From positions 62,001 through 126,000 of the forward strand of contig JAEUIE010000006.1 in assembly GCA_016795155.1 (NCBI GenBank): a stretch of 64,000 nucleotides of DNA. The letters are read 5' to 3'. Origin of the DNA: Planctomycetia bacterium (GTDB lineage: Bacteria; Planctomycetota; Planctomycetia; Gemmatales; HRBIN36). The position numbers and the translations under genes are program-made. Under the pieces are notes generated by a model. The model saw nothing but the letters and a program-made list of their open reading frames with translations, ran no database searches and had not been told where the DNA came from. This document shows, one piece after another, positions 25,591 through 58,467 of this stretch. Numbering within the stretch: position 1 is the stretch's first letter; each line of letters begins with the position of its first letter.

Positions 25591-27096
25591 ATGCACTCAA
25601 CACATGAGATTGAACAACAAGCTCAATTAGCCATTGATCATTTCGGTGTACCCTCTGACATTGCTTCCCAGATGGTCAGTAGGGTAATTCAGGCTGAAAA
25701 ACAGGGAGTATTTCTAAACGTACTTACGCTGTTACGGGATGGGGGGTTTCTCACCGACGAACAAGCAGATCAAATACTGAAAAACAGCGATGGGTCATTT
25801 ATTGCCGTTCAACATGCAGAAGTACAGAAACTGGATGTTGAGTACTTTGATGATGAACATCCCAGGTTCATCGGTGGTTATGAACTCCTGAAAAGACTTG
25901 GCGGTGGAACCATGGGTGCTGTATACCTGGTGTCGCAACCTCAATCCAACAAGCGTTATGCTATGAAAGTGCTTGGGCCTCAATGGCGCAAGCATGAAAC
26001 CCTTCTGATCCGGTTTCAACGCGAATCTCAACATGCAGCCAAGTTGGATCATCCTAATATCGTTCGTGGATTCTATGCAGGATCTGACAAAGAAACTGGT
26101 CGTCATTACTTTGTGATGGAATATGTAGATGGGATCAGCGTTCAGACTTTATTATCTCAACGAGGGAGACTACCTCCAGGCGTAGCCCTGCGCATTATCT
26201 GGGAAATAGCTCACGGTCTGGCACATGCGCATTCCAAGGGTATTGTTCATCGAGACATTAAACCAGCCAACATCCTTATTGATCCGGCTGGAGTTGCCAA
26301 ACTCGCAGATTTTGGATTAGCCAAAGACCGATTCACCAACGATGTTTCTCTCACTAAAACAAGGCAGGGTTTCGGTACACCGTTCTATATGCCTTACGAG
26401 CAAACCATCTCGGCACGCCAAGCCGATCAGCGAAGCGATCTTTTTGCTCTTGGTGCCACTGGATACCACATGCTGACTGGCCGATTGCCTTTCGAAGGTC
26501 AGACCCCTCTGGAAATCACCGAGAAAAAGCAGACAGGCACCTACCCTCCTGTTTCCGAACTTGTTCCAAGCCTGAATCCCAAGATTGATGCTTTGCTCGC
26601 CAAATTGCTTGCCCGGAAACCTGAAGATCGTTTTCAATCCGCCAGCGACCTCATCATTGCGCTGGATGCTTCTAACCTGGTTCCAGCAAAGCTGAATTGG
26701 GACGAAGCAACCGTTGAAGAACGTGGCACCGTTCATATTGCGGATCAGCCGACCAATCACGATGATAACGTATCGGATCAGGAAAAAGAACGCGCCTGGT
26801 ATCTCTGGTCAGGAAGACAATCTGGTAAACTGGTTTGTAAAAAGGCGACAACAGAACAAATCCGCGAGGCACTCAGTAAAAAGACTTATACACTGGAACA
26901 ACCAGTTAGCCGTTCACCCCGGGGCCCTTATCGGCCATTACGTGAGTTTATTGAATTTCGAATGCCCACTGTTACAGAACCAATCATGAAAACGCCAAGG
27001 CGATGGCCCGGCTGGATGGTATTCGCAGGCTTTACATTGTTCTGCCTGCTTTTCATGTTACTTCTCTGGTTTATGGCTCCTCATATTCAGAAATGA
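25591..27096 (+). CDS. membrane-anchored serine/threonine protein kinase
   Basis: About 501 aa. An N-terminal helical segment of some 85 residues precedes a Hanks-type kinase domain: glycine loop LKRLGGGTMGAVYLV, lysine in YAMKVL, catalytic loop HRDIKPANIL, DFGLAKD, and GTPFYMPYEQ as the activation segment end. A basic linker region with WYLWSGRQSGKLVCKKAT follows, and one membrane helix lies at the extreme C-terminus (WMVFAGFTLFCLLFMLLLWF). Almost nothing follows the helix, so there is no extracellular sensor domain. The start is uncertain: ATG 25591 lacks an SD, and GTG 25528 would add 21 mostly hydrophobic residues. It overlaps the transporter gene by 4 bp. Confidence 0.88.
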   Translation: MHSTHEIEQQAQLAIDHFGVPSDIASQMVSRVIQAEKQGVFLNVLTLLRDGGFLTDEQADQILKNSDGSFIAVQHAEVQKLDVEYFDDEHPRFIGGYELLKRLGGGTMGAVYLVSQPQSNKRYAMKVLGPQWRKHETLLIRFQRESQHAAKLDHPNIVRGFYAGSDKETGRHYFVMEYVDGISVQTLLSQRGRLPPGVALRIIWEIAHGLAHAHSKGIVHRDIKPANILIDPAGVAKLADFGLAKDRFTNDVSLTKTRQGFGTPFYMPYEQTISARQADQRSDLFALGATGYHMLTGRLPFEGQTPLEITEKKQTGTYPPVSELVPSLNPKIDALLAKLLARKPEDRFQSASDLIIALDASNLVPAKLNWDEATVEERGTVHIADQPTNHDDNVSDQEKERAWYLWSGRQSGKLVCKKATTEQIREALSKKTYTLEQPVSRSPRGPYRPLREFIEFRMPTVTEPIMKTPRRWPGWMVFAGFTLFCLLFMLLLWFMAPHIQK

Positions 27097-27968
27097 CAGA
27101 TCTCTGGGGAAGCCGACTCATTGTGGCGTCTGCCGCTCTATGCTGGAGCATGAGTGGCTTTTTTGTCAAACTCCTTACTGAATCGCAATCATGGATGGGA
27201 GAGGTTCGGGCGGTTGCGCCTGAGCAGATTGCCTGCTGGCGATGCCTCTTTGGAGCATTGGCTATCGCGCCGTTTCTGCGACTGAGAATGTTGCAATGGC
27301 ATCCAATTCTGGTGATTACCGCATGTTGCTTCACGCTGATGAATGGATTATTCATTGCAGCAATGTCGATAGGCGGTGTCGCTGAAGCTGCATGGCTGCA
27401 ATATACAGCACCATTCTGGGTATTTCTCGTTCAAGTAATCATCCTGCGACGGTCCCGAGCTTCTCAACGAGATTGGTTGGCACTTGCAATTGCCATGACT
27501 GGGGTTGTCATCATCGTCTTTGGCAATCTTCAAAGTGATCAATTCGCATCAGCATCAATGGCATTAGGTGCGGGAATTGCCTTCGCCGGGGTTATTATCG
27601 GGTTGTCTTTGTTACAGCATTTGTCCTCAATCTGGTTGACATTCGTGAATCAACTGACTGCAGGACTTCTGGCATTACCCTGGGCCATGGCCACACCTTG
27701 GCCAGAAGGTTGGCAGTGGTTTATTCTTGCTCTATTTGGTGCTGTGCAGGTTGCATTGCCTAATTGGCTGTTGTCGAAAGCGATGTACCATTTGCCTGCA
27801 CATGAAGCATCTCTTATCACTCTTCTCGATCCATTATTGGCACCATTCTGGGCATACTTGATCACGTATCAGATTCCATCCAGCACTACAGTTGCAGGAG
27901 GGATCATTTTCCTGGCGGCACTGATCTTGAGATATCTTCCGCTGAGAACTACCACTGCCAGAACTTAA
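27093..27968 (+). CDS. EamA/DMT-family transporter
   Basis: 291-aa membrane protein with about ten helices in two EamA repeats (first from LIVASAALCWSMSGFFVKLL, second from MALGAGIAFAGVIIGLSLLQ). The family exports metabolites such as amino acids or their derivatives; the substrate cannot be told. The ATG at 27093 overlaps the kinase stop as ATGA, so the two are translationally coupled; an earlier in-frame start at 27003 would overlap the kinase by 94 bp. The stop codon shares a TTAA palindrome with the stop of the convergent PEGA gene. Confidence 0.85.
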   Translation: MTDLWGSRLIVASAALCWSMSGFFVKLLTESQSWMGEVRAVAPEQIACWRCLFGALAIAPFLRLRMLQWHPILVITACCFTLMNGLFIAAMSIGGVAEAAWLQYTAPFWVFLVQVIILRRSRASQRDWLALAIAMTGVVIIVFGNLQSDQFASASMALGAGIAFAGVIIGLSLLQHLSSIWLTFVNQLTAGLLALPWAMATPWPEGWQWFILALFGAVQVALPNWLLSKAMYHLPAHEASLITLLDPLLAPFWAYLITYQIPSSTTVAGGIIFLAALILRYLPLRTTTART

Positions 27969-28554: not shown

Positions 28555-28678
28555 AGTATAGTCAAGGCAAGCTTGCAAGCCCATATCAGACACCTGAATG
28601 GCCTTCGCCTTGTTCTCTTGAGTTCAGCAACTATATTAATAGTCCGTTAGTAAGTACTTCTGGTGGAGTGTGCGCACG

Positions 28679-30013
28679 ATGACTGGCATAACTACTGATA
28701 TTAAAGCGATGTTTCTCGAAAAAGATGATTGTGATGCAGGAACGGTGCAAAGATTACGTGATGGATTGGCCCAGGGACATCCCCAATATAAGGCACTGCG
28801 TGAATCGGTTGATGCCATGAAGGTCAAACTGGAAGCAGGTGGACCACAAGAGAAGAAGTGGCATTTGAAGTTGGGGGTAGCTAACTGGTTTCTGGGGCGA
28901 ACACGTGACGCTGCTGATCATCTTCACAAAGCAGATACCGCCCTGTCACAATTTTATCTGGGACGAGCATTGGCCCAACTGAACGATATGGACGAAGCCC
29001 ATAAAGCGTTTGAACGTGCAGAAAAGATGGGTTATACGGCAACTCAAGTACAACTGCAGCGAGCAGGGCTTTATCTGCACCAGAAGCAGTATAAGCAGGC
29101 AAAAGAACTGATCAATCGACTGGAAAGCATGAGCAGTCATTCTGGTGAATACCACTTCCAGAAAGGTTGCCTGTTACTTGAAGAAGGCGATCGATCGGGT
29201 GCACTGGCCAGCTTTGAGAAGGCGATCGAAATTGATCCCAACCACTCAGGTGCTTTGTTCCAATTGGGATATTACAACGACCTGGCTGGAAACGATGAAG
29301 AAGCTATCGGATTTTATGAACGCAGCGTTTCTCAACTTCCCGCCAGCAAGGGTGCATTGAATAATCTGGGTATTCTCTATGAGGATAACAATCAGTACGA
29401 GAAAGCACACAATTGCTATCGACAGTTGAGTGAGGCTTTCCCAACTGATGGCAGAGCCAGACTTTTTCTCAAGGATGCTGATGCATCCCGTGAAATGTTC
29501 TTCGATGAAGACGCTGAACGACGCTTTGACAAGTTTTCACAGGTACTTGAAGTTCCAGTTACAGACTTCGAACTGTCCGTGCGAAGCAGAAACTGCCTGA
29601 AAAAGATGAACATCCGGACGCTCGGTGATTTGACACGCGTAACTGAATCACAATTGCTGGCCAGCAAAAACTTTGGTGAGACATCACTTGATGAAATCAA
29701 GGATATGTTGACAGCTAAAGGCTTGAGGCTTGGCCAGGCTTTGGAAGAAGGTGCGCGTTACGACCCACGCTTCCGAGCCAATCAGCCTCAGTATTCTCCC
29801 GAAGAACAAGAGGCGATGAACAAACCCATCAGTGAATTGAACTTTTCGGTGCGTGCCCGTAAATGTATGAACCGTTTGAGTATCAGTACAGTTGGTGAAT
29901 TGATTCAGCGAACTGCTGATGAACTTCTGGAAATGAAGAACTTTGGGCAAACTTCATTGGTAGAGGTTCGTGAAAAGCTCACTGAACTCAATTTGAAGCT
30001 TCGTGGCGACTGA
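28679..30013 (+). CDS. TPR protein with two RNA polymerase alpha C-terminal domains
   Basis: 444-aa soluble protein. Residues about 50-260 are tetratricopeptide repeats (for example GDRSGALASFEKAIEIDPNH, ALNNLGILYEDNNQYEKAH). Two domains closely similar to the C-terminal domain of RNA polymerase alpha follow, at about 294-352 (FELSVRSRNCLKKMNIRTLG, NFGETSLDEIKDML) and 383-444 (LNFSVRARKCMNRLSISTVG, NFGQTSLVEVREKL). In E. coli numbering the first copy keeps R265, N268, C269, G296, S299 and E302 and has T at K298; the second also keeps R265 but has K at 268. Alpha-CTDs bind UP-element DNA and activators, so a role with DNA or transcription is likely but unproven. ATG 28679 (GGAG ten bases upstream) is preferred over GTG 28670. 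Confidence 0.85.
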   Translation: MTGITTDIKAMFLEKDDCDAGTVQRLRDGLAQGHPQYKALRESVDAMKVKLEAGGPQEKKWHLKLGVANWFLGRTRDAADHLHKADTALSQFYLGRALAQLNDMDEAHKAFERAEKMGYTATQVQLQRAGLYLHQKQYKQAKELINRLESMSSHSGEYHFQKGCLLLEEGDRSGALASFEKAIEIDPNHSGALFQLGYYNDLAGNDEEAIGFYERSVSQLPASKGALNNLGILYEDNNQYEKAHNCYRQLSEAFPTDGRARLFLKDADASREMFFDEDAERRFDKFSQVLEVPVTDFELSVRSRNCLKKMNIRTLGDLTRVTESQLLASKNFGETSLDEIKDMLTAKGLRLGQALEEGARYDPRFRANQPQYSPEEQEAMNKPISELNFSVRARKCMNRLSISTVGELIQRTADELLEMKNFGQTSLVEVREKLTELNLKLRGD

Positions 30014-35995: not shown

Positions 35996-37015
35996 ATGGA
36001 CGCCCGCCCTGTTGCTTTCATTACCGGCATTGCCGGCCAGGATGGTTCATATCTGGCAGAATTGCTGCTGCGCAAAGGCTATGCAGTACATGGACTGCTT
36101 CGTCGTAACAGCGATCCGTTCCCGATTCGCCTCAATCATCTCTATGGAAAGTTGCAACTGTGGCCTGGCGACTTATGTGATCTTTCTAGTCTTACCCAGC
36201 TTCTCTATCGCATTCAGCCTCGAGAGATTTATCACCTTGCTGCTCAAAGCATTGTTTCACAGAGCTGGAATCAACCCTTACTGACAGCGGACATTACTGC
36301 CCTGGGAACGCTGCGAATACTGGAAGCCATGCGGCAGGCTGTGCCCAGTGCACGTTTTTATCAATCATCTTCGAGTGAACAGTTTGGTTCAGTTAACTCC
36401 AGTCCGCAAAATGAAACCACTCCATTTCAGCCACGAAATATGTATGGTGTTTCGAAGGTCTTTGCTCATCAGACAACCGTTAATTACCGAGAACATTATG
36501 GCCTGTTTGCCTGTTGTGGCATCATGTTCAATCACGAATCTCCACGAAGAGGAAAAGAGTTTGTCACTCGCCGTATTAGTCAGGGTGTTGCTGACATTGC
36601 ATCGGGCAAGAGTGATGTGCTGACGCTAGGAAGCATGGATGCCCGCCGCGACTGGGGATTTGCAGGCGACTATGTGGATGCCATGTGGCGTATGCTGCAA
36701 CAGGATTCCGCGGAAGATTATGTCATTGGCACGGGTGTCACTCATACTGTTGAACAACTGGTTGAAACCGCCTTTAACCATATTGGCCTTTATTATCAGG
36801 ACTGGGTTAAAGTAGATCCTGATCTCGTACGCCCTGCCGAAGTAAATGAATTGCGAGCAGACGCCAGTAAGGCACGAGACAAGCTTGGCTGGGAATCAAG
36901 CCTTTCTTTTTCCGATCTGATAGGAATGATGGTTGAAGAAGATCTCAGGGTGATTCAGCGCACTAGCCCAACTATCCTCAGTTTGCCTACCCGTAGATTG
37001 GCGAAGACTGCATAA
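35996..37015 (+). CDS. gmd: GDP-mannose 4,6-dehydratase
   Basis: 339-aa short-chain dehydrogenase-fold enzyme that makes GDP-4-keto-6-deoxymannose, the precursor of GDP-fucose, rhamnose or perosamine. NADP-binding glycine motif ITGIAGQDGSYLAELLL at residues ~9-25, RRNSDPFPIRLNHLY, SSSSEQFG (catalytic Ser/Thr-Glu region), YGVSK (Tyr-Lys pair) and FNHESPRRGKEFVTRRIS all match Gmd. No fucose synthase or perosamine synthase is adjacent. It stands alone behind a 210-bp gap and ends at a perfect hairpin. Confidence 0.9.
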   Translation: MDARPVAFITGIAGQDGSYLAELLLRKGYAVHGLLRRNSDPFPIRLNHLYGKLQLWPGDLCDLSSLTQLLYRIQPREIYHLAAQSIVSQSWNQPLLTADITALGTLRILEAMRQAVPSARFYQSSSSEQFGSVNSSPQNETTPFQPRNMYGVSKVFAHQTTVNYREHYGLFACCGIMFNHESPRRGKEFVTRRISQGVADIASGKSDVLTLGSMDARRDWGFAGDYVDAMWRMLQQDSAEDYVIGTGVTHTVEQLVETAFNHIGLYYQDWVKVDPDLVRPAEVNELRADASKARDKLGWESSLSFSDLIGMMVEEDLRVIQRTSPTILSLPTRRLAKTA

Positions 37016-45163: not shown

Positions 45164-45228
45164 AGCCCGACGCGCCAGCGAGGGGCGATGTGCAATCGCA
45201 AGGTCCACCCTCGCTAGCGCGTCGGGCT
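45164..45228. repeat. long palindromic intergenic element with nested hairpin
   Basis: Two 21-nt arms (45164-45184 and 45208-45228) are inverted copies with a single mismatch; the outer ends read AGCCCGACGCGC and GCGCGTCGGGCT. The loop holds a second small hairpin, GCGAT/ATCGC (45186-45190 and 45196-45200). It lies between divergent genes, so it is not a shared terminator; a REP-like dispersed element is likely. Confidence 0.7.
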
Positions 45229-45261
45229 GCCAAGTTCTTTGCTTCAATATGCAGGTGTTTG

Positions 45262-46914
45262 ATGTCATCGCCCTCCCCCCAAGCCACATACCCTCAACCC
45301 CTTTCCTCGAAGGGTAAGGGGGAGAAGAAACCTTTTGTTCCGCCCCCGCACGGCTTGGCCCATTATGCCTGGCTGGTTGAAATGGCGGGTGCAATCCTTG
45401 TCGTCGCAGTACTCACCATTACCGAATCAGGTGGTATGTTCCGCGATTCTTGTTGCCTCTGGCACCCGGTCGTTGGAGAAAAACTCCTCCATGAGGGCTG
45501 GATTACCACTGACCCATTCAGTCACACCTTTGCTGGCAAATTCTGGATACCATTCCAGTGGCTGGGTGAAGTTGCCATGGCAAAACTCTATGAATGGGCC
45601 AGTTACGATGGAATTTTCTGGGCCACCGTAGCTCTTTTTGCAAGTATGTTCGGTTGGCTGGCAGGCCGGGCCGTACGGTTTGGATGTCATCCCATACTTG
45701 CTGCGCTCATTGGTTCACTTGCGTTTTTTGAATGTTGTCATCATTTCCATGCCCGACCCCATCTCATCACGATGGCAGGCATGTGTTTTCTGATGGCTTT
45801 ACTCACTGATGTTGAAGCAGGCAGGTTGAAAAAACTTCATCTGTTATGGATTATCCCTGCATTCTGTCTGTGGGCCAATATTCATGGCGGCGTGCTCGGC
45901 GGCTGGGGCACCCTGGGTATCGTCTTCTTCGGCTGGGGCGTTTATTGGTTGTTGGGCTGGAATTCACCTATCGATTCCTGGAAAACTGTTGGCTGGTTGA
46001 TCCTACTCTGTATTGCCGCCACTGCAGTGTTCCTGGTTAATCCTTATGGCTACGATTACATGCGCATGTGGGCAGAGATCATGAAGGCTGATCTGCCCAA
46101 GATTATTGTGGAACATGCTCCACTCAATCCAACCAGTGCAGTCGGAATCACCGTTCTGAGTGAAGCCCTTCTCTACTTCTTTATTCTGGCAGGCACATGG
46201 CCAAAGCATCGCCCTCGAGTTGTCTGGCTGTTGCCTATTGTCTGGCTGATTCTCGGTTGTTCTCGTATTCGTCATGCACCATTGTTCTCACTGGTCGCCA
46301 TGATTGCGATCATCGACATGTTGCCTTACTGCAAATGGATGCACTGGCTGGCCAAGCGAAGTGATCTGTATGTTGAACCCAAGCCAGACGATCCAAAAGA
46401 ACCGACTTGGGGCATTATTGCAGCTCGCTTATTCCCTTTGTTGATACTGGCTGTCCCTATCACCGGTTTGCGATTTGTCGAACTCGATAAGGAATGGTGG
46501 CCGCTGGAACTGATTCCTGAAATGAAAGAGCAGGCACAAAAACCGAATGTGAAATTATTCAACGAAGATCGCCTGGCAGGCATGGTCATCCGCTATGTTC
46601 CGGAACTGAAAGTATTCGTAGATGATCGTTGCGAACTCTATGGCGAAGCATTTCTACTTGATTACCTGGATGCCATCCGCGACAAGCCAGCCGACAAACC
46701 CAAGAATCCAGATCCTGATGCACCCACGGTGTTAACTCCGCAAGAGAGAGAAAAACAGGAATACTGGATGAATGAATGGACTAAACGGTACGGCATCAAC
46801 CTGGCTCTTGTGCAGCCCAAGAGCAAGTTCGCAGCGTACCTTCGCACTGCACCTGGCTGGAGACTCGTCAAGGAAGTGAAAGGCGGATGCCTGTTTGTCA
46901 AAGATAACAATTGA
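45262..46914 (+). CDS. GT-C-like polytopic membrane protein, possible glycosyltransferase
   Basis: About 550 aa with roughly ten membrane helices and a soluble C-terminal domain. The N-terminal loop after helix 1 (GGMFRDSCCLWHPVVGEKLL, GWITTDPFSHTFAGKFWIPF) and the C-terminal LAGMVIRYVPELKVFVDDRC, ELYGEAFLLDYLDAI, KRYGINLALV resemble a widespread family of GT-C-like membrane proteins thought to use polyprenyl-linked sugars. The specific activity is unknown. The start is uncertain: the frame is open from 45190, but that part is palindromic repeat DNA, so ATG 45262 is chosen. Confidence 0.7.
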   Translation: MSSPSPQATYPQPLSSKGKGEKKPFVPPPHGLAHYAWLVEMAGAILVVAVLTITESGGMFRDSCCLWHPVVGEKLLHEGWITTDPFSHTFAGKFWIPFQWLGEVAMAKLYEWASYDGIFWATVALFASMFGWLAGRAVRFGCHPILAALIGSLAFFECCHHFHARPHLITMAGMCFLMALLTDVEAGRLKKLHLLWIIPAFCLWANIHGGVLGGWGTLGIVFFGWGVYWLLGWNSPIDSWKTVGWLILLCIAATAVFLVNPYGYDYMRMWAEIMKADLPKIIVEHAPLNPTSAVGITVLSEALLYFFILAGTWPKHRPRVVWLLPIVWLILGCSRIRHAPLFSLVAMIAIIDMLPYCKWMHWLAKRSDLYVEPKPDDPKEPTWGIIAARLFPLLILAVPITGLRFVELDKEWWPLELIPEMKEQAQKPNVKLFNEDRLAGMVIRYVPELKVFVDDRCELYGEAFLLDYLDAIRDKPADKPKNPDPDAPTVLTPQEREKQEYWMNEWTKRYGINLALVQPKSKFAAYLRTAPGWRLVKEVKGGCLFVKDNN

Positions 46915-48636: not shown

Positions 48637-49578
48637 ATGAATTCATATCCGGCCATCTCTGTTGTTATTCCAGTTTACCAGAGTGAGAAAAGCCTGCCTC
48701 CGTTAATTGAACAGTTGGAAACAGCGCTGAAAGCATTGTCTTTACCTGATTTCGAAGTCATCATGGTGAACGATGCCAGTCGAGACAATAGCTGGAAGGT
48801 CATCCAGACTTTATCAGTAGAGAAACCCTGGATACGTGGCATCTGTCTGATGCGCAATTACGGTCAGCATAATGCCGTTTTATGTGGTATACGAGCAGCA
48901 CGCTTTCCCGTGGTTGTTACGATAGATGACGACCTGCAGCATCCGCCCGGTGAGATCGTCAAACTAATGAACGCACTGAATGATGAAACTGATGTTGTGT
49001 ATGGTACACCTGAGAAGGAACAGCATGGCCTATGGCGAGACCTGGCTTCAGTAGTCACCAAGATGGCCCTGCAAAGCGCCATGGGAACCACGATTGCCCG
49101 CAAGGTTTCAGCATTTCGCCTGTTTCGCACCAAGTTGCGTGATGCCTTTGCCACTTATTCCAGTCCATATGTTTCCGTTGATGTACTCCTCACCTGGGGC
49201 AGCACACGTTTTACCTCAGTCAAAGTGAGACATGACCCGCGTACAATCGGAAAATCGAACTACACTTTCTCAAAGCTTGCACGGCATGCGATGAACATGA
49301 TTACCGGCTTTAGTGCCGTACCTCTGCGATTGGCGACCTTCATTGGATTTGGATTTGCCTTGTTTGGCGGATTGTTGCTTGTTTATCTGCTGATCAATTA
49401 TTTTGTAACAGGTGGAGGCGTTCAGGGATTCACCTTCCTTGCCTCAGTTATTTCACTATTCTCAGGGGTTCAGCTCTTTGCCCTGGGCATCATGGGTGAA
49501 TACCTGGCACGTATGCACTTCCGCATGATGGATCGACCTTCCTATACTGTCCGCGTCGTGACAGGAGATACGACATGA
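48637..49578 (+). CDS. family 2 glycosyltransferase, polyprenyl-phosphate sugar synthase type
   Basis: 313-aa GT-A enzyme of the DPM1/ArnC-like group that transfers a sugar to polyprenyl phosphate. N-terminal ISVVIPVYQSEKSLPPLIEQ, nucleotide-binding VTIDDDLQHPPGEIVKLMNA, and two C-terminal membrane helices (ATFIGFGFALFGGLLLVYLL, FLASVISLFSGVQLFALGI) match. It is the first gene of a tightly packed set and overlaps the next by 4 bp. Confidence 0.9.
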   Translation: MNSYPAISVVIPVYQSEKSLPPLIEQLETALKALSLPDFEVIMVNDASRDNSWKVIQTLSVEKPWIRGICLMRNYGQHNAVLCGIRAARFPVVVTIDDDLQHPPGEIVKLMNALNDETDVVYGTPEKEQHGLWRDLASVVTKMALQSAMGTTIARKVSAFRLFRTKLRDAFATYSSPYVSVDVLLTWGSTRFTSVKVRHDPRTIGKSNYTFSKLARHAMNMITGFSAVPLRLATFIGFGFALFGGLLLVYLLINYFVTGGGVQGFTFLASVISLFSGVQLFALGIMGEYLARMHFRMMDRPSYTVRVVTGDTT

Positions 49579-50636
49579 CAGCCCCAGTGAATATCCTGCT
49601 CTTGGGATTGGGTGGAAACGTCAGTCAGGGAATCTTAAAAGCGTTAAGGAAATCACAACTGCCTTTGAGGATCATTGGCGGTTGCGTACGTGCTGAAGCA
49701 GCAGGGCTCTACTTCTGTGATCATGCTCTCGTCACGCCTTATGCCACCGATCCGCATTTCATCAATTGGTTGATAACCACCTGTAATCAGTTTCAGATAC
49801 ACGGCATATTGACCGGTGTAGAAGAAATTCTGATTGCCATGGCACTGCACCAGAAAGCCTTGCAGCAGAATACCACTGCCAGGGTCATTTCTTCGTCGTA
49901 TGAACGGCTCGAAATCTGTCATGACAAGCTGAAAACAGCCCATTGGCTGAAAGCTAACGGATTGAATTATCCGAAATCAGTAGATGCCGGTAACGAGGCG
50001 GACGTTTTGAATCTTCTTAATGATCTGGGACTGCCCTTATTCGCCAAGCCAAAAGTGGGTAAAGGTGCGAAAGGCGCCATGCGGATTGATAGCATCGAAC
50101 AACTCAACAGTTTGCGTGGCAATGCAGAATATGTCATCCAGGAATTTCTACCTGAACAACAAAACGAAATTACCGCTGCCAGCTTTTCTGACATAGATGG
50201 CGAGGTTCGTGGCATCATCCTTTTCAAGCGAGATTTACAGAATGGCACGACGGTGTGCGCACAGGTCACACACTCGCCGATTGTTGAACAGGAAGTGATG
50301 CGAATCAGTCAGCGATTAAAGCCGAGTGGTCCATGCAACATGCAATTGCGAATGCATCGGGGTAAACCAGTATGTTTCGAGATTAATTTACGTTATTCGG
50401 GTACAGCACCCATCCGAGCCGAGCTGGGCTTTAATGATGTAGAAGCAGGAATACGTCACTATATTCTTGGCGAACCTGCGTACGATCTGGCAAAGATTCG
50501 GAACGGATTTGCATTGCGGTTCTGGAATGAAGTGTATCTCGACGAACAATCGTACACCCGTTTTCAGTCGAAGGGAAGCTTTGAGAATCCTGCTCAGAGC
50601 ATTCAGCAATTCGAACAGTTCGGGAGAAAGCAGTGA
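49575..50636 (+). CDS. ATP-grasp ligase, CarB/PylC-like
   Basis: 353 aa. An N-terminal Rossmann-like part (ILLLGLGGNVSQGILKALR) is followed by an ATP-grasp fold: SSYERLEICHDKLKTAHWL, PLFAKPKVGKGAKGAMRI, YVIQEFLPEQQNEITAAS and the metal-binding VCFEINLRYSGTAPIRAELG. ATP-grasp enzymes join an amine or amino acid to a carboxylate via an acylphosphate. Embedded between sugar genes, it may attach an amino acid or carbamoyl-like group to a glycan; this is inference. ATGA and GTGA overlaps couple it to both neighbours. Confidence 0.8.
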   Translation: MTAPVNILLLGLGGNVSQGILKALRKSQLPLRIIGGCVRAEAAGLYFCDHALVTPYATDPHFINWLITTCNQFQIHGILTGVEEILIAMALHQKALQQNTTARVISSSYERLEICHDKLKTAHWLKANGLNYPKSVDAGNEADVLNLLNDLGLPLFAKPKVGKGAKGAMRIDSIEQLNSLRGNAEYVIQEFLPEQQNEITAASFSDIDGEVRGIILFKRDLQNGTTVCAQVTHSPIVEQEVMRISQRLKPSGPCNMQLRMHRGKPVCFEINLRYSGTAPIRAELGFNDVEAGIRHYILGEPAYDLAKIRNGFALRFWNEVYLDEQSYTRFQSKGSFENPAQSIQQFEQFGRKQ

Positions 50637-51514
50637 AAGTCCTGATTACAGGCGCATCTGGTCTGGTCGGTGGGGCCATTGCCAGGCATTTGATACAAGC
50701 TGGACATGATGTTACTTGTCTTGTGAATAATCAAAATGTTGAGCTGCGTTGTGATTATGTAACTGGAAGACTGGGCGATGCATCCTTAGTTCAGAAAGTC
50801 CTCTCTAACAGTCCACGCTGCGATGCCATAATTCATGCTGCAGCAAAGATCAGCTACGACAACACACATCCTGAAATCATCACTACGAATATTATCGGCA
50901 CCGAGCAGTTGATCCAACTTGCAAGGAAGTGGCACTCAAAGACGTTTGTTTACCTGTCATCGATTGGTGTAATTGGAAAGCCAGTGTACCATCCCATCAC
51001 TGAAGATCACCCTGTGAATCCGCTCAGCCTGTACCATGCATCCAAACTGTTTGGCGAGCACTTGGTCCTGCTCCAATCAGATATTCCTTCACGCGTAATC
51101 TTGAGGCTGACAGCACCGGTAGGTGTTCACATGCCTCAACAGCGGATTCTGCCAGCGTTTGTCAAAAATGCCATTCAACATTTGCCTCTGCAAATTCAAG
51201 GCAGTGGTGAAAGACAACAGAACTATGTTGATGTTCGCGACATTACACAATGCGTCTGCAACGCACTTTCGTACACTGGCACAGGCATTTTCAACCTGGG
51301 CGGCAGCGATTGTATCTCAAACCTGAAATTGGCCAGGTTATGTATTGAACTACTAAACTCAAAATCAACAATTGAGCATTCCTCAACAGCTGACCCGGCA
51401 CCCGACGAAGTATGGAATGTGTCGATTGATCGTGCGAAAAAACAGCTGAATTATCAGCCTCAATTCGATATCCGCTCAGTCATTAGGCAACTTGCAGATT
51501 ATTATGCTCATTAG
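50633..51514 (+). CDS. NAD-dependent sugar epimerase/dehydratase
   Basis: 293-aa extended short-chain dehydrogenase. It has the nucleotide-binding motif LITGASGLVGGAIARHLI at the N-terminus, the catalytic Tyr-Lys pair in YHASKLFGEHL, and the upstream SSIGVIG. It probably changes C4 or oxidises/dehydrates an activated sugar. The start is GTG at 50633 overlapping the ATP-grasp stop as GTGA, with GGGAG upstream. A 127-bp gap follows before the acetyltransferase. Confidence 0.85.
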   Translation: MKVLITGASGLVGGAIARHLIQAGHDVTCLVNNQNVELRCDYVTGRLGDASLVQKVLSNSPRCDAIIHAAAKISYDNTHPEIITTNIIGTEQLIQLARKWHSKTFVYLSSIGVIGKPVYHPITEDHPVNPLSLYHASKLFGEHLVLLQSDIPSRVILRLTAPVGVHMPQQRILPAFVKNAIQHLPLQIQGSGERQQNYVDVRDITQCVCNALSYTGTGIFNLGGSDCISNLKLARLCIELLNSKSTIEHSSTADPAPDEVWNVSIDRAKKQLNYQPQFDIRSVIRQLADYYAH

Positions 51515-51641
51515 ATTCGACTTCATGATAAGACTGTACCTTTTTCACTTGTGCTACAGAAAACGATATTGCAGACTTGAAGGTATTCCTTTTTGCAGCA
51601 GTACTAGATAACAACATTATTCACTTCGTTGTTATTGATGT

Positions 51642-52415
51642 ATGTATAGCTTCTGGAAACGAATGCTGATGCAAGCTGGTGAGAGTGAACCCTGGCAACT
51701 CCTCTACTGGGATACCAATTTGTTTGGTATCCGTATTGCCCGCATTCTGCAGCCATTGACCGAAGTTGAGTTGCAGGCCTATCTGCTCTGGGCTCAATCG
51801 CACGATATTGAATGCACGTATTACGATTGCCCCATCGAACACGTTGACGCTATTCATCTTGCTCAACACTACAGCTTTCAGTTTGTTGATATGCGGGTAT
51901 TGCTGAAGCGATCGATGAAAATCTCCGTTCCTTCGCATGCATCAGATAATGAAATCCGATCCGCACGTGATTCTGATATCGAGAAACTGCAGGCTCTATC
52001 CGTCGAGTTGCATAAGGATACCAGGTTTTTTGCTGATCGTCGTTTTCCAGTTGCCCAGGCTCGTGAACTCTATGCCATCTGGATGAGAAATGAATGTGCT
52101 GCAACCGACGGAGTTGTTTGGGTGAAAGTTGATGAGAACGATTCGCCCATTGGTTACCTGACCTGCAAAGCCCAGGGCGAGCTTGGCACTATTGGTCTAT
52201 TTGGAGTCGCTTCGCAATATCAGGGGAAAGGAATTGGGCAAGCGTTATTACGAAAAGGGTTAGGTTGGTTTAATGAACAGAAATGCCAGAGAGTGCAGGT
52301 AGTAACGCAAGGCAGGAATACAGGAGCTTTGGCCAGTTACTGCATGCAGCAGTTCCTTATCATCAAGCAATCGGTCTGGCTTCATCGTTGGACGCAATCG
52401 ACAGGCAGTTCATGA
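51642..52415 (+). CDS. GNAT acetyltransferase, WecD-like
   Basis: 257 aa. The N-terminal half (WDTNLFGIRIARIL, ECTYYDCPIEHVDAIHLAQH) resembles the substrate part of WecD, and the C-terminal half is a GNAT domain with the acetyl-CoA loop SQYQGKGIGQALLRKGLGWF and VVTQGRNTGALASY. WecD acetylates dTDP-4-amino-4,6-dideoxygalactose with acetyl-CoA. The adjacent WecE-like gene makes that assignment plausible. The start may be ATG 51642 or 51663. The stop overlaps the methyltransferase start as ATGA. Confidence 0.78.
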   Translation: MYSFWKRMLMQAGESEPWQLLYWDTNLFGIRIARILQPLTEVELQAYLLWAQSHDIECTYYDCPIEHVDAIHLAQHYSFQFVDMRVLLKRSMKISVPSHASDNEIRSARDSDIEKLQALSVELHKDTRFFADRRFPVAQARELYAIWMRNECAATDGVVWVKVDENDSPIGYLTCKAQGELGTIGLFGVASQYQGKGIGQALLRKGLGWFNEQKCQRVQVVTQGRNTGALASYCMQQFLIIKQSVWLHRWTQSTGSS

Positions 52416-53242
52416 AATCCATTGCAGATCTCTCTTCACAACTTCAATTCGATGAACATGGCATCTGGCGAAGCCAGCGTTCACATCAGCTATCCTATCC
52501 TGAAGAAGGTAATCAACTGTATTACCAACTCGAAGACACTTCATTCTGGTTTCAACATCGCAATCAGGTCTTGTGCGAAATCGTGAAGCAATTCCCGCCT
52601 GCAGGTACATTCTTCGACATCGGCGGAGGAAATGGCTGTGTTGCCAATGCACTTCAGACGCAAGGACTGGAAGTCATTCTGTTGGAACCGGGGCCTGCCG
52701 GTGCATTGAATGCCAGAAAACGGGGTGTCCAACAGGTTATTTGTTCTACGCTGGAAGATGCTGGATTGGCTGAAGCCAGTATTCCAGCTGCAGGTCTATT
52801 TGATGTCATCGAGCATATCAATGATGATCAATCTTTGATGAAATATCTACGCACTCGCATGATGACAGGTGGCTTACTTTACATCACCGTGCCTGCATTC
52901 AGCATGCTTTGGTCGCACGAGGATGTTGAAGCTGGTCATTTCAGGCGATTTACTCTTTCACGACTTAAAAAACTAATTGAACAAACTGGCTATCAAGTTG
53001 AATACTCTACTTACTTTTTCAGTTTTCTGACAATTCCCATTTTCCTGCTCCGATCCATACCTTCAGCCATTGGTTTTCGTAAACAAAGCAAATCAGAGAA
53101 GGTTCAAGAGGAACACCGCCCTCGATCGGGATTTATCGGAAAATGGATGGATCGGTCGCGACAGAAGGAACTTCAACGCATCCACCAGAAGAAAACACTT
53201 TTCTGGGGCAGCAGTTGCCTTCTGGTTGCCCGTGCCGTTTAG
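52412..53242 (+). CDS. class I SAM-dependent methyltransferase
   Basis: 276 aa from the ATG at 52412, which overlaps the acetyltransferase stop. SAM motif I is GTFFDIGGGNGCVANAL near residue 67; LFDVIEHINDDQSLMKYL and TVPAFSMLWSHEDVEAGHFR follow, the pattern of small methyltransferases in glycan loci. A hydrophobic segment (YFFSFLTIPIFLLRSIPSAI) near residue 205 suggests membrane association. The substrate is probably a sugar or lipid-linked intermediate. The frame is open upstream to 52283, but that would overlap the previous gene by 133 bp. Confidence 0.82.
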   Translation: MKSIADLSSQLQFDEHGIWRSQRSHQLSYPEEGNQLYYQLEDTSFWFQHRNQVLCEIVKQFPPAGTFFDIGGGNGCVANALQTQGLEVILLEPGPAGALNARKRGVQQVICSTLEDAGLAEASIPAAGLFDVIEHINDDQSLMKYLRTRMMTGGLLYITVPAFSMLWSHEDVEAGHFRRFTLSRLKKLIEQTGYQVEYSTYFFSFLTIPIFLLRSIPSAIGFRKQSKSEKVQEEHRPRSGFIGKWMDRSRQKELQRIHQKKTLFWGSSCLLVARAV

Positions 53243-53265
53243 TCCGATATGTTTAGGAAGAACCT

Positions 53266-54405
53266 ATGTCGCATGAGCAACTGATAACTTTTAATCGCTC
53301 TTCCACCATTGGCAAAGAATTCCAGTACATTGCCGAGACCCTGCTGGTAGGACAGATTGCAGGCGACCAGACCTTCACCAGAAAATGTCATCAACTGTTC
53401 GAATCCAAACTCGGTGTTGCCAAAGCATTGCTCACCACATCCTGCACCCATGCACTGGAAATGTCAGCACTGCTGCTGAATATTCAACCAGGCGATGAAG
53501 TGATCGTTCCGGCTTTTACCTTTGTGTCAACAGCCAATGCCTTTGCATTACGTGGCGCTAGAATTGTTTTTGCAGATATCAGACCGGATACCATCAATCT
53601 GGACGAACAGCAACTTACCCGATTGATTACACCCAGAACCAAAGCACTGGTTGTCGTGCATTATGCCGGTGTTGCCTGTGCTATGGAACCAATCCTGGCT
53701 ATTTGTCGCAAGCATGGTATCTCTGTTGTTGAAGACAATGCCCACGGATTGTTTGGCCGTTACCAAGGCAAGCCACTCGGTACGCTGGGCTGCCTGTCAA
53801 CGCTCAGCTTTCACGAGACGAAGAACTTTACTTGTGGTGAAGGCGGAGCATTATTGATTAACGATCCTCAATACATCGAGCGTGCTGAGATCATCCGTGA
53901 AAAGGGTACCAACCGAAGTCGGTTCTTTCGCGGGCAGGTCGATAAGTATACCTGGGTAGACGTCGGCTCCAGTTATTTGATCTCCGACGTCCTGGCTGCG
54001 TTCCTTTTTGCACAACTTGAGCGATCAGAAGAAATTCAGTCTAAACGTCGGGTGATCTGGAATCGTTACAACAGCGAACTGCAGGATTGGGCCAGTAAGC
54101 ATCACGTCCAACTGCCCCATGTGCCTGAAGATTGCGATCAAGCCTACCACATGTATTATCTCGTGATGCCATCACTGGAGAAAAGGCAATCGTTGATTGC
54201 ATATCTCAGGTCACACAACATCATTTCCGTATTTCATTATCAATCACTTCATCTTTCCGACATGGGTAAAAAATATGGAGGCAAACCGGGCGACTGTCCC
54301 GTTACTGAGCGTATGAGCGACTGTCTGCTTAGACTTCCTTTCTTCAACGACATGTCGGTTGATCAGCAGTTCAGAGTAATCAATGCAATAAAACAATGGA
54401 AGTAA
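53266..54405 (+). CDS. DegT/DnrJ/EryC1-type sugar aminotransferase, WecE-like
   Basis: 379-aa PLP enzyme. PAFTFVSTANAFALRGARIV, SVVEDNAHGLFGRYQG and the PLP lysine in HETKNFTCGEGGALL match dTDP-4-amino-4,6-dideoxygalactose transaminase (WecE/RffA). With the WecD-like gene two places upstream this gives a likely route to dTDP-4-acetamido-4,6-dideoxygalactose. The dTDP-glucose synthase and dehydratase genes that would supply the substrate are not in the window. SD-like AGGAAG precedes the start. It follows the methyltransferase by 23 bp. Confidence 0.88.
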   Translation: MSHEQLITFNRSSTIGKEFQYIAETLLVGQIAGDQTFTRKCHQLFESKLGVAKALLTTSCTHALEMSALLLNIQPGDEVIVPAFTFVSTANAFALRGARIVFADIRPDTINLDEQQLTRLITPRTKALVVVHYAGVACAMEPILAICRKHGISVVEDNAHGLFGRYQGKPLGTLGCLSTLSFHETKNFTCGEGGALLINDPQYIERAEIIREKGTNRSRFFRGQVDKYTWVDVGSSYLISDVLAAFLFAQLERSEEIQSKRRVIWNRYNSELQDWASKHHVQLPHVPEDCDQAYHMYYLVMPSLEKRQSLIAYLRSHNIISVFHYQSLHLSDMGKKYGGKPGDCPVTERMSDCLLRLPFFNDMSVDQQFRVINAIKQWK

Positions 54406-54563: not shown

Positions 54564-56789
54564 ATGCTCCGTTGGAGCTTCGTCATAGTTTTGGCGATTG
54601 GTATTGGCTGTTCTCGCGAATACTACGTTCGTGATGCAGACAAGGAGACCTATGCTGCGCTGGAGGAACGGAACACCAACTCCTGGACCATTCCTGACCT
54701 AGATATTATCCCGCCGCCGGAATCGCGGATTTTTGTACCCGGCAATATGGTGAAGCCACCTCAACCGCTGGATGATTCCTACGCTCACGAATACATGCTT
54801 TACGCTAACGGTATTCGTGGATCAACCATCTGGGATAACTATGGTTACACGGACAACTGGGATAATCCCGATTGGATGGCCTATCTGCCACTCGATAAGA
54901 ACGGTGCTGTCCCCTTGAACGCGGAGCGTGCAGTTCTGCTGGGGCAGATCCACAGCATTTTCTTTCGAACTGAACTTGAAAACCTCTACCTGACTGCGTT
55001 GGCACTTACACTCAACCGGTTTGAATTCGCCTGTCAATGGTATCTGACCAACAGCACCTTCTTCCAGCACTTTGGTACCAATGGCTACCCGACTGAATCG
55101 AATACAGTGACCACCAACACCAATTTGGGCTTTACCAAAGCTTTCTCGACGGGTGGCCAACTTCTCATTGATTTCGCCAACAGTTTTGTATTTGAATACA
55201 CCGGGCCAAATCACTACCGGGTAAACAGTTCTATCAGCGGTACATTCCTTCAGCCTCTGCTGCGAAATGGTGGCAAGTACGTTCGCATGGAAACTCTAAC
55301 ACAGGGCGAACGCAATGTACTGTATGCCATCCGCGATTTCGCCCGATTTCGCAAACAGTATTATTTCAATCTCTCCATGCGTGATGGTGGATACCTTGGA
55401 TTACAACTGGCTGAGCAGAACATCAGGAATCAGGAAGATAATGTTCGAAGACTGGAACAGATTTATCAACTGCATCAATTTCTGATTGCCAAGGGTGGTT
55501 CGATTTCCCAGGTACAGCTTGACCAGATTTTCCTGGGACTAAAGCAGGCACAGGCCACACTGATTCAAACCCGAACTTTCTATGAAAACGCTTTGGATAA
55601 TTATAAGTACACTCTTGGATTGCCACCTGCGTTGCCTGTCAAACTGGAGAATACATTGCTTGAACAGTTTGCACTGACAACACCTGAGATGGATTCCATT
55701 CAAAACGATCTGGCAGCCCTGGATCTCAAAATCAGGCAAAATGATCAGCCACCGGTATTGAGTGAATTGAAGAGCATGACTGAAACCTGTCGTCAGATCA
55801 TTGAGCGAACACAAACCGTTTCGCAAAGCGTGGTAAAAGAACTGGATACCCGATTGAAATCACTGCCAAAAGAAACTGCTGATCCAGATGCTCAACAAGC
55901 CAGGCTGGATTTAACTCAACTGACTGAACGCATGACAGATTTGAGCACTGAATTAAGCAAGCTGCATGGAGGACTGAACCAACTACTCAAAGAGATAACT
56001 GAAAACGAAAGAGCCAGAGATTTTGAGCGCCTTAAACGACGAGTAAGGGAGTTGCTGGCAATTCAGGGCGACTTGCTGGTTTATCAAACACAAGTTCGTG
56101 TATACGCAGTTCAGTTAAAGCACTTCAACTTCACTGAAGATGAATGTATTCGCATCGCACTGGAAAATAGATTGGATTTAATGAATGAGAAAGCCAGAGT
56201 GGTGGATAGCTGGCGACGTCTTAATATTTCAGCTAATGGCTTACTTCCAGGCCTCAATATCGTTTCTGGGATGAATATTGGCGATATTCCACTTAATTCT
56301 CATCCTTACGATTTTGCTGCACAGGCCAGTTCATATCGCATTGGCGTTCAATTGGATGGCCCATTGAACAGGCAGATCGAAAGAAATACTTTCCGAACCA
56401 GTATTATACAGTATCATAGAGTACGACGAGCCTACCTCAATCGGTGCGATTCGGTGGTTCAGTCGTTGCGAAGAAATTTGCGCCAACTGCAAACCGACCG
56501 ACTGAACTTTGAAATCGCCCGCCAAAGCCTGATCGCTGCTGCTAGACAATTGGAAGCCACCCGCATCCGGCTTTTGATTGGCGGCGATCTAAACCCAGCA
56601 ACCGGCACGCTTGACACCCTCAGTGCTCTTTCCTCCCTGCTGGCTGCTAAAAACACGCTGATTGCCAACTGGGTTAACTATGAAACCGGTAGGCTACAGC
56701 TTTTGCTCGATATGGAATTACTTCAACTTGACGAAAGGGGGATTTACCATGACGACCAAACTATCGCCATTGTCCCCAACCATGATTGA
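54564..56789 (+). CDS. TolC-family outer-membrane efflux lipoprotein with large coiled-coil insertion
   Basis: 741 aa, far longer than the usual 430-500. Signal peptide MLRWSFVIVLAIGIGCS ends in a lipobox (Cys17). Outer-membrane efflux repeats are visible: the first from about residue 120 to 375 (AEQNIRNQEDNVRRLEQIYQ, AQATLIQTRTFYENALDNYK), the second from about 523 (FTEDECIRIALENRLDLMNE). Between them lies an insertion of some 145 residues, mostly charged helix (LTQLTERMTDLSTELSKLHG). It would form the outer-membrane channel of an export pump. The next gene, overlapping by 41 bp, is the adaptor; no inner-membrane transporter follows. Confidence 0.82.
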   Translation: MLRWSFVIVLAIGIGCSREYYVRDADKETYAALEERNTNSWTIPDLDIIPPPESRIFVPGNMVKPPQPLDDSYAHEYMLYANGIRGSTIWDNYGYTDNWDNPDWMAYLPLDKNGAVPLNAERAVLLGQIHSIFFRTELENLYLTALALTLNRFEFACQWYLTNSTFFQHFGTNGYPTESNTVTTNTNLGFTKAFSTGGQLLIDFANSFVFEYTGPNHYRVNSSISGTFLQPLLRNGGKYVRMETLTQGERNVLYAIRDFARFRKQYYFNLSMRDGGYLGLQLAEQNIRNQEDNVRRLEQIYQLHQFLIAKGGSISQVQLDQIFLGLKQAQATLIQTRTFYENALDNYKYTLGLPPALPVKLENTLLEQFALTTPEMDSIQNDLAALDLKIRQNDQPPVLSELKSMTETCRQIIERTQTVSQSVVKELDTRLKSLPKETADPDAQQARLDLTQLTERMTDLSTELSKLHGGLNQLLKEITENERARDFERLKRRVRELLAIQGDLLVYQTQVRVYAVQLKHFNFTEDECIRIALENRLDLMNEKARVVDSWRRLNISANGLLPGLNIVSGMNIGDIPLNSHPYDFAAQASSYRIGVQLDGPLNRQIERNTFRTSIIQYHRVRRAYLNRCDSVVQSLRRNLRQLQTDRLNFEIARQSLIAAARQLEATRIRLLIGGDLNPATGTLDTLSALSSLLAAKNTLIANWVNYETGRLQLLLDMELLQLDERGIYHDDQTIAIVPNHD

Positions 56790-58467
56790 AACGACTTTTA
56801 ACCCGTCCCGTGTTCTTGAGACTGATACGATGCAGAAGGATCTGCTTCCCACTACGGTAACTTCGGAACTGGCTATGAGCACGGCTTACCCCGTTGCTCC
56901 AACACATATTGTGCATGTCAGTCACGAAATCATCCCTTCGCCATCTTACGATGTACAAGCACAAACTACATCAAGAAGGCTCTGGATTCCTTATGCATTC
57001 ACTGCACTGGTTGCACTCGGTGCTGGCTACCTCTGGTTTCGTCCCGCTCCTGGAGTGGTAAGTATCACTGAACCACCGCTCACACTGATCAGTGCCACAA
57101 AAGCTCCGCTGGACGTTTGTCTGATTGAACAAGGCGTCATCGAGTCAAACTCGACTGTTCTGATCACTAACCCAATTACTTCTGCACCCGTGACCGTTAC
57201 ATCAATGGTCCCTTATGGTACCCGGGTCAAGAAGGGCGATGTGATTGCCAAGCTCGATCTTTCCAGCCTGCACTCCACCATGGCAGATCAGCAAAGCAAG
57301 ATTCTCGCGGCAAGAATGAAACTGCAGGAAGCCCAGGAAGCCCTCGATGCCCTCAAGACCAAAAACGAGGGCGAGCTGGCATCCATGGATTTACAAATGG
57401 AATTCGCCCAGAGTGATCTGAACCGGTACGTGAATGAAGAGAAACAGGTGGAACTGAATGATCGCCGAGGACAGATTTCCATGGCTGAACGCGACCTGCG
57501 TGAAGCTGAAGAAAAAATGTCCTACTTTAGAACGTTTCACAAACGAGGCTTCATCAGCAGTGAGCAATTAAAAGCCAAGGAAGCAGAGCTGGAACGTTCT
57601 CGTTTTGCCCTGGCACAGAATCAGTCTCGACTCAAAATCTATGAACGATACATGGTGCCGCGCCAGGAACGTACCCTGCAGGCAAAAGTGGATGAGTTGA
57701 AACGAGAATATAGCAAATTGAAAAAGACACAAAGTGCAGCCCTGCTGAAAGCACAGAATGATATCACAACTTGTAAAGCTGGATTAACTTCGGAAGAGAA
57801 TAAGCTTACCCTGTTGCAAACTCAACTGGCTAACGTCGAGGTAATAGCCCCGCGTGATGGTATCGTCGCCGCTCCACCAGCGGAAGCACAAAAGACCCGA
57901 CCTGCTCAAGGCTCAACACTCCAACCAAGTCAGGCGATATTTTCGATGCCTCAATTGGACAAGGTGTGTGTCAAAGTCAGGTTGGGCGAGTCAGAAATGC
58001 GCAAACTGCAAACTAGGCAGAAAGCTCGCATCACCTTGGATGATGAGTCTGGCGCTCAATACCAGGGAACTTTGGAGAAAGTGGATTTTCAGGCAGAATC
58101 GACTTGGACCAGGCCTGATGGACAACCCAAGGATTTTGTTGCTCTCGTCTCCATCACCAATAATGAGCCTCTGGATTGGACATATCTCGGTCAGAAAGCT
58201 CGAGTCGAATTCACACTCGATACGTTGCCCGATGCGTTACAGGTTCCAGCTTCTGCTATCACTGAAAAGGAAGGCAGATCCTACGTGATGGTCATGACTA
58301 GGGATGGATTAATGCCACGCGAACTTCGCACTGGTTGTACGGATGGCAAAAAGGTTGAAATCCGTCAGGGACTTGAGCCTGGTGAGAAAGTTGTTGTTTC
58401 ATCTAAACTGAAACTGAACGAAACAGTTGATATTCAACCAGCCAAGCTGGTCGTGGCAACACCATGA
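56749..58467 (+). CDS. HlyD/RND-type membrane-fusion protein
   Basis: 572 aa from the ATG at 56749, with GGGGG eight bases upstream. A polar N-terminal region of about 77 residues precedes one membrane helix (LWIPYAFTALVALGAGYLWF), then a lipoyl/barrel-sandwich half (VTSMVPYGTRVKKGDVIAKL), a long coiled coil (about residues 185-360), the second half (ANVEVIAPRDGIVAAPPAEA) and the C-terminal beta domains. It links a transporter in the inner membrane to the TolC protein encoded upstream. The partner pump is missing locally. A 13-bp hairpin follows the stop. Confidence 0.85.
   Translation: MTTKLSPLSPTMIETTFNPSRVLETDTMQKDLLPTTVTSELAMSTAYPVAPTHIVHVSHEIIPSPSYDVQAQTTSRRLWIPYAFTALVALGAGYLWFRPAPGVVSITEPPLTLISATKAPLDVCLIEQGVIESNSTVLITNPITSAPVTVTSMVPYGTRVKKGDVIAKLDLSSLHSTMADQQSKILAARMKLQEAQEALDALKTKNEGELASMDLQMEFAQSDLNRYVNEEKQVELNDRRGQISMAERDLREAEEKMSYFRTFHKRGFISSEQLKAKEAELERSRFALAQNQSRLKIYERYMVPRQERTLQAKVDELKREYSKLKKTQSAALLKAQNDITTCKAGLTSEENKLTLLQTQLANVEVIAPRDGIVAAPPAEAQKTRPAQGSTLQPSQAIFSMPQLDKVCVKVRLGESEMRKLQTRQKARITLDDESGAQYQGTLEKVDFQAESTWTRPDGQPKDFVALVSITNNEPLDWTYLGQKARVEFTLDTLPDALQVPASAITEKEGRSYVMVMTRDGLMPRELRTGCTDGKKVEIRQGLEPGEKVVVSSKLKLNETVDIQPAKLVVATP

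Follow-up and report, generated by a model that had tools for sequence, protein, structure and literature searches.

In the enterobacterial common antigen pathway, the enzyme that follows WecE and WecD is WecF, and the sugar enters a repeat unit. The Arn pathway (ArnB, ArnA, ArnC, ArnE/F and ArnT), which makes undecaprenyl-phosphate 4-amino-4-deoxy-L-arabinose (Ara4N), combines an aminotransferase, an N-acyltransferase and a polyprenyl-phosphate glycosyltransferase of family GT2. Three-component systems of the same logic have been described for glucose and pentofuranoses, as far as the available text of these reports goes (PMC11127046, PMC3688519). In Clostridioides difficile type B flagellin, a mutant in an ATP-grasp gene loses the terminal sugar moiety, according to the available part of the report (PMC5207246). 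Here we describe a six-gene cluster at positions 48637-54405 of a 64,000-nucleotide stretch (the window; contig JAEUIE010000006.1, positions 62,001 to 126,000) from the genome of a Planctomycetia bacterium (5.28 Mb, 68 contigs). The cluster is predicted to make an N-acetylated 4-amino-4,6-dideoxy sugar, most likely deoxythymidine diphosphate (dTDP)-4-acetamido-4,6-dideoxygalactose (dTDP-Fuc4NAc), and to load it singly on polyprenyl phosphate for addition outside the cytoplasm; we put the probability of this reading at about 0.55. The core of the cluster, a GT2, a WecD-like GNAT acetyltransferase and a WecE-type aminotransferase, is probably an Arn/Gtr-like, lipid-carried glycosylation donor pathway for decoration of the cell surface.

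Organization of the cluster

The six genes are all intact and lie on the + strand, in the order given by a preliminary description of the window:

48637-49578, + strand: GT2 glycosyltransferase of the ArnC/GtrB (polyprenyl-phosphate) type; PF00535, two hydrophobic C-terminal segments
49575-50636, + strand: ATP-grasp carboxylate-amine ligase-like protein (PRK12767 / NF009402); 264.5 bits vs cut-off 218
50633-51514, + strand: extended short-chain dehydrogenase/reductase (SDR), epimerase/reductase type; GTG start, PF01370 122 bits
51642-52415, + strand: GNAT acetyltransferase, WecD-like; NF008212 84.7 bits (cut-off 219), WecD fold match
52412-53242, + strand: class I S-adenosylmethionine-dependent methyltransferase (PF13489); 49.4 bits vs cut-off 27, scored on the longer frame from 52283
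53266-54405, + strand: WecE-type sugar aminotransferase (DegT family); NF008687 and TIGR02379 cut-offs passed, HETKN motif

The same description had the genes packed with 4-bp overlaps. Such overlaps occur at three of the five junctions (GT2/ATP-grasp, ATP-grasp/SDR and GNAT/methyltransferase), whereas a 127-bp gap separates the SDR and GNAT genes and a 23-bp gap separates the methyltransferase from WecE. The list of open reading frames (ORFs) puts the methyltransferase start at 52283; the start at 52412, where the frame overlaps the GNAT gene in ATGA, is preferred because of that overlap, as a matter of judgement, and is most likely the right one. A consensus scan of the 127-bp gap (51515-51641) found no promoter-like or terminator-like site, which is weak evidence because the region-wide counts of such sites are near the shuffle means. 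The six genes are likely to be co-transcribed. The gap between 51514 and 51642 might instead separate two unrelated transcription units, GT2-ATP-grasp-SDR and GNAT-methyltransferase-WecE, that happen to lie side by side. This is highly improbable: GT2, GNAT and WecE go together in many genomes and each half of the cluster carries part of that set, and no terminator-like site turned up in the gap scan.

The amino-sugar enzymes and their substrate

The aminotransferase scores above both NCBIfam WecE cut-offs (562 vs 375 bits for NF008687 and 516.5 vs 434.85 bits for TIGR02379). Its best PDB matches, 6blg and 4piw, are both WecE, and the lysine of its HETKN motif, which we take to be the catalytic lysine, aligns to the solved WecE. 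The predicted structure of the GNAT protein has a predicted local distance difference test (pLDDT) score of 93.1, and the rank 1 match of Foldseek in the PDB is WecD, 2fs5 (TMq 0.73, TMt 0.84, 20% identity). A tyrosine of the GNAT protein is aligned with Tyr208 of WecD (numbering by hand), presumably the general acid, and Y233 of the GNAT protein is almost invariant across 31 aligned rows.

RmlB is encoded on another contig of the host genome (463 vs cut-off 365 bits), which makes dTDP-Fuc4NAc a reasonable predicted product. The same sugar had been proposed in the preliminary description from the pairing of WecD with WecE; the WecE scores, the RmlB gene and the fold match to WecD agree with the proposal, and the WecD family score of the GNAT protein makes it weaker than stated there. 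Another source of a 4-keto-6-deoxy sugar may lie about 11.6 kb upstream of the cluster, where a gene at 35996-37015 (+) resembles GDP-mannose 4,6-dehydratase (397 vs cut-off 415 bits).

A GT2 of the ArnC/GtrB type

The GT2 protein aligns over its full length, the hydrophobic C-terminal part included, with the solved ArnC and GtrB (sll0501) of the PDB, and it has two hydrophobic segments in that C-terminal part. Across the clade, the DxD motif (D97, D99) is kept in 60 of 60 sequences and the equivalent of GtrB R200 in 57 of 60; the columns of GtrB R122, R200 and D157 were matched by hand from the alignment with ArnC and GtrB. A GT2 of this kind suggests that the sugar is donated singly from a lipid carrier, and is less in keeping with a usual repeat unit of an O-antigen or S-layer glycan. 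The preliminary description overlooked both the ArnC/GtrB kind of the GT2 and the recurrence of GT2, GNAT and WecE together.

Recurrence of the core

A scan with WecE yielded at least 80 loci in named genomes and 13 more were fetched via the GT2, so that 93 loci (numbered L) were examined. L053, a record named Planctomycetota, and L131, fetched from the host's phylum, share the very same WecE sequence and seem to be a single record that entered the count two times. A GT2 was counted as near WecE if it scored above 250 bits and lay within 5 kb. Within that distance, the 93 loci carried the GT2 in 59, the GNAT (by BLAST) in 40, both in 35, the methyltransferase in 16, the SDR in 14 and the ATP-grasp in 1. 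The 13 fetched loci had been selected by the GT2; without them, 46 of the 80 loci listed for WecE have it. The search from the GT2 to WecE is a stronger test than the reverse. As sole query, the GT2 matched 14 other genomes out of 342 in the phylum, and in the regions of 13 of these relatives WecE (>400 bits) was present within 4.2 kb in all 13 and within 1.6 kb in 12; the remaining match is at the end of a contig, and its region was left out of the count. The co-occurrence of GT2 and WecE, often with GNAT, in many unrelated genomes exceeds chance.

The loci with the GT2 near WecE carry the labels of seven phyla: Chloroflexota, Planctomycetota, Acidobacteriota, Verrucomicrobiota, Myxococcota, Lentisphaerota and Omnitrophota. 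Relatives of the methyltransferase, 40-46% identical, occur at five WecE loci (L028, L044, L064, L076 and L134). For example, L134, from the same phylum, has the genes GT2-GNAT-methyltransferase-WecE in the same order as the window, its GNAT, 15% identical, being placed by clustering only. A literature search by titles and abstract openings, with subscription journals largely outside its scope, found no description of a GT2-GNAT-WecE cassette among the papers listed.

WbqC-like genes adjoin GT2 or WecE in some loci (L026, L033, L049, L055, L068, L069, L071 and L092), and the group member in L069 was confirmed by Pfam (PF08889, 257.8 bits). L071 is from Leptolinea tardivitalis YMTK-2 and has GT2 and WecE, with a WbqC-like gene instead of the GNAT. 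Where WbqC is near WecE, no GNAT label appears among the gene windows listed, which suggests that WbqC may replace GNAT in acylating this amino sugar.

Possible flippase and GT-C partners

Membrane proteins of the expected kinds adjoin some of the relatives. In L134, the gene directly after WecE is GtrII (PF14264, 66.4 bits vs cut-off 30). Near WecE, the matches above cut-off are PMT_2 in L030 and in L060 and EamA in L046; another such EamA gene is found in L029, a locus without the cassette GT2. Matches below the Pfam cut-offs near WecE are PMT_2 in L094, EamA in L080 and YfhO in L040, and a Pfam scan of the polytopic neighbours in L128, L080, L053, L035, L033, L098 and L061 gave no GT-C family. 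By a crude hydropathy count, 42 of the 93 loci encode a protein of at least 400 residues with at least 7 hydrophobic segments no more than 4 kb from WecE; 14 loci, where WecE had been lost in gene calling, gave nothing to count. Other contigs of the host genome hold nine PMT_2 matches in eight open frames.

The window also encodes an EamA-family transporter (93.9 bits in two stretches) at 27003-27968 (+), some 20.7 kb upstream of the cluster, which is a remote flippase candidate. Closer by is a protein that was considered for the missing GT-C enzyme:

45190-46914, + strand: 574-residue polytopic protein; no Pfam match

It was rejected: it is present in four of six family relatives, and none of the six has a WecE or ATP-grasp match. 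The four regions fetched around this protein contain no cassette genes.

Proposed pathway

We infer each reaction, the identity of the sugar and the lipid acceptor from the gene order, the families, the recurrence of the core and the WecD fold match. RmlA and RmlB, encoded elsewhere in the genome, would supply dTDP-4-keto-6-deoxyglucose, which WecE would aminate at C4. The WecD-like GNAT would acetylate the amino sugar, and the GT2 would transfer the single sugar to polyprenyl phosphate, in the manner of ArnC and GtrB with their own sugars. After flipping of the lipid-linked sugar, a GT-C enzyme whose gene lies elsewhere would add it on the outer side of the membrane. O-methylation of the sugar is the probable role of the methyltransferase, and the ATP-grasp and SDR proteins may add a further decoration, perhaps an aminoacyl group.

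A number of observations weigh against this scheme. The best NCBIfam family of the GT2 is ArnC, at 174.7 bits, far below the cut-off of 529. In the column of GtrB R122, the clade has Pro in 56 of 60 sequences, Ala in 3, Ser in 1 and never Arg, and in the column of D157 it has Ala in 53 of 60. The GNAT protein falls below the curated WecD cut-offs (84.7 vs 219 bits for NF008212, and 55.4 vs 195.1 bits), and GNAT was detected by BLAST in only 40 of the 93 loci. The best RmlA candidate in the host genome is a 243-codon frame of 223 bits, below the cut-off of 361. In 34 of the 80 WecE loci listed there is no such GT2 within 5 kb, some of the contigs ending there. Pfam and NCBIfam place no GT-C enzyme or flippase among the six genes; the nearby polytopic protein at 45190-46914 occurs in relatives that have no WecE or ATP-grasp match; and in one scan of 10 WecE-neighbour proteins (9 polytopic, 1 small), 3 were above the relevant Pfam cut-off, one of them in L029.

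In the alignment ArnC retains the R122 arginine but, as we read it, lacks the D157 residue. The GT2 clade has the DxD motif, the window protein has the hydrophobic C-terminal segments, and of the acceptor-binding arginines R122 and R200 the clade keeps the R200 equivalent only. The available text of the GtrB report describes R122 as universal where the acceptor is a lipid phosphate, and as essential to activity (PMC4728340). Perhaps the clade binds its acceptor in another way, or uses another acceptor.

The missing arginine would also suit the view taken in the preliminary description, in which the cluster makes a soluble dTDP-sugar for a repeat unit of the O-antigen or S-layer type and the GT2 adds that sugar to a growing chain in the cytoplasm; WecE and WecD do serve a repeat unit in enterobacterial common antigen. 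We regard this as unlikely, given the full-length match of the GT2 to ArnC/GtrB with its two hydrophobic C-terminal segments, the GtrII, PMT_2 or EamA genes that adjoin some relatives, and a Pfam scan of 20 window ORFs in which no Wzx, Wzy or initiating transferase family was found.

If the reading as a lipid-carried donor pathway is correct, a single gene set connects the sugar of an enterobacterial antigen with decoration via a lipid carrier in Planctomycetota, Chloroflexota, Acidobacteriota, Verrucomicrobiota and Myxococcota. To our knowledge, the envelope glycans of these phyla are poorly known. A bolder and doubtful extension is that GT2-WecD-WecE is a widespread, unnamed cassette for lipid-carried Fuc4NAc, present in seven phyla or more, whose GT2 clade recognizes the lipid acceptor although it lacks the "universal" arginine, and that the ATP-grasp and SDR genes here extend the cassette to the synthesis of an aminoacylated 4-amino-4,6-dideoxy sugar on a lipid carrier. 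The cassette raises two testable points: whether polyprenyl-phosphate-Fuc4NAc is made without the GtrB arginine, and which group the PRK12767 ATP-grasp/SDR pair attaches to amino sugars.

The ATP-grasp/SDR pair

The combination of genes had been called unusual. This is borne out for the ATP-grasp/SDR pair only; GT2-GNAT-WecE, sometimes with the methyltransferase, recurs. The ATP-grasp protein passes the cut-off of a family, NF009402, that is named only "carbamoyl phosphate synthase-like protein". Its E269 is almost conserved and its N271 fully conserved in 10 relatives. The model (pLDDT 86.6) has 2pn1 as its top fold match, with PurK, PurT, RizA and PylC also among the 50 matches listed, and L-amino acid ligases among them as well. 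As these matches are mixed, the predicted fold places the protein in the carboxylate-amine ligase superfamily and no finer. The SDR protein has the GxxGxxG and YHASK motifs, and its sequence does not have the TDE motif that marks dehydratases. An assignment as a 4,6-dehydratase was rejected (94.5 bits vs the TIGR01181 cut-off of 365).

The best external match of the ATP-grasp protein is in Acetoanaerobium noterae, where WecE (52%), ATP-grasp (45%) and SDR (36%) are contiguous in that order. The SDR adjoining this ATP-grasp gene is also the best relative of the window SDR among the loci compared (36%, 182 bits; next best 91 bits). The contiguity and the SDR match argue that the two proteins act jointly, at times on a WecE product. 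Outside the window, A. noterae is the only case, among the regions examined, in which the pair is contiguous with WecE. In Sinorhizobium medicae (L160, 6231-8892), a PHP-domain, ATP-grasp and oxidoreductase (SDR) trio lies beside sulfate-activation genes, without WecE.

Matches to the ATP-grasp protein occur in 5 of 342 other genomes of the phylum (E to 1e-25), two of which (L136, L139) have WecE-like genes (42%, 49%) within 2 kb. A third (L138) has a weak DegT relative (32%) beside the match, and in the other two, on short contigs, no WecE lies beside it. One of the 20 genomes reached through the loci has a match (1e-25), as does a single genome among 400 from the phylum of G350 (1e-35). On plasmids, 35 records matched, 33 of them Sinorhizobium, and two were examined. 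Phages gave no match and viral contigs none that was confirmed. The six family relatives have no ATP-grasp match (to 1e-20) and no close WecE (to 1e-90). Membership of ATP-grasp in the core was rejected: it is near WecE in 1 of 93 loci, as a weak match on the opposite strand. The pair may be an accessory one for further decoration, perhaps with an aminoacyl group.

A different role for the pair would change the product. ATP-grasp could acylate the 4-amino group that WecE introduces with an amino acid or another acid, GNAT could acetylate the added group, and the SDR could prepare or modify the acyl part, giving an acylated Fuc4N and not plain Fuc4NAc. The A. noterae arrangement fits such a route, the contiguous trio lying near a hexapeptide transferase and, as read by eye, RmlA-like and flagellar genes. 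So does the C. difficile type B flagellin, in which an ATP-grasp protein is needed for a terminal sulfonated peptidylamido sugar, as far as the available text goes (PMC5207246). L-amino acid ligases are among the fold matches, but these do not tell such ligases from PurK, PurT and carbamoyl-phosphate synthase. With the pair found without WecE in the one Sinorhizobium region, and ATP-grasp so rarely near WecE in the 93 loci, we consider the route improbable.

Origin and surroundings

A WecE tree of 96 rows, built with a quick method, has 50 unresolved inner branches out of 92 and gives the window no firm place; the nearest rows in this mostly unresolved tree are from Chloroflexota, Cyanobacteriota and Verrucomicrobiota. 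Counted per kb, the G+C content is 0.45-0.49 in the cluster and 0.455-0.56 in its flanks, no clear difference. The patchy occurrence in the family and phylum and the nearest WecE rows from other phyla are compatible with a horizontal acquisition of the cluster.

An outer-membrane efflux protein (PF02321) is encoded 158 bp after the cluster, followed by a protein that by eye resembles a membrane-fusion (HlyD-type) protein (54564-58467, +). Elsewhere in the window, a tetratricopeptide repeat protein at 28670-30013 (+) has its best Pfam match to PF03118, the C-terminal domain of RNA polymerase alpha (149.9 bits over two stretches), an odd pairing.

Comparison with known systems

The cluster resembles the C. 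difficile type B flagellin glycan genes (CDR20291_0242-0247) in that a glycan cluster combines an ATP-grasp gene and an aminotransferase of the DegT type (FdtB-like in C. difficile); the likeness is by description, not sequence, in the available part of the report (PMC5207246). That cluster has ornithine cyclodeaminase-like and FemAB-like genes, whereas WecE, SDR and GNAT are present here.

With the WecE-WecD branch of enterobacterial common antigen it shares a WecE over both cut-offs, a GNAT whose best fold match is WecD, and the expected product, dTDP-Fuc4NAc. It differs in the partner, here an ArnC/GtrB-type GT2, and in the additional ATP-grasp, SDR and methyltransferase genes.

The Arn pathway has the same logic of aminotransferase, N-acyltransferase and polyprenyl-phosphate GT2, and EamA or PMT_2 genes lie beside a few relatives of the cluster. 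In contrast, the sugar family is another one, the acyl group is acetyl here and formyl in Arn, the cluster is without ArnD, ArnE, ArnF and ArnT, and the GT2 is under the ArnC cut-off.

The three-component Gtr (GtrA, GtrB, Gtr-type) and GT136 systems lack the dedicated amino-sugar donor genes that the cassette holds. The cluster is without the R122 equivalent and without GtrA or a GT-C enzyme; in the three-component (Gtr/Arn) plan a flippase and a GT-C enzyme are encoded with the GT2, which is not so in the window cluster. What the cassette has in common with these systems is a GtrB-type GT2 and, in L134, a GtrII gene directly after WecE.

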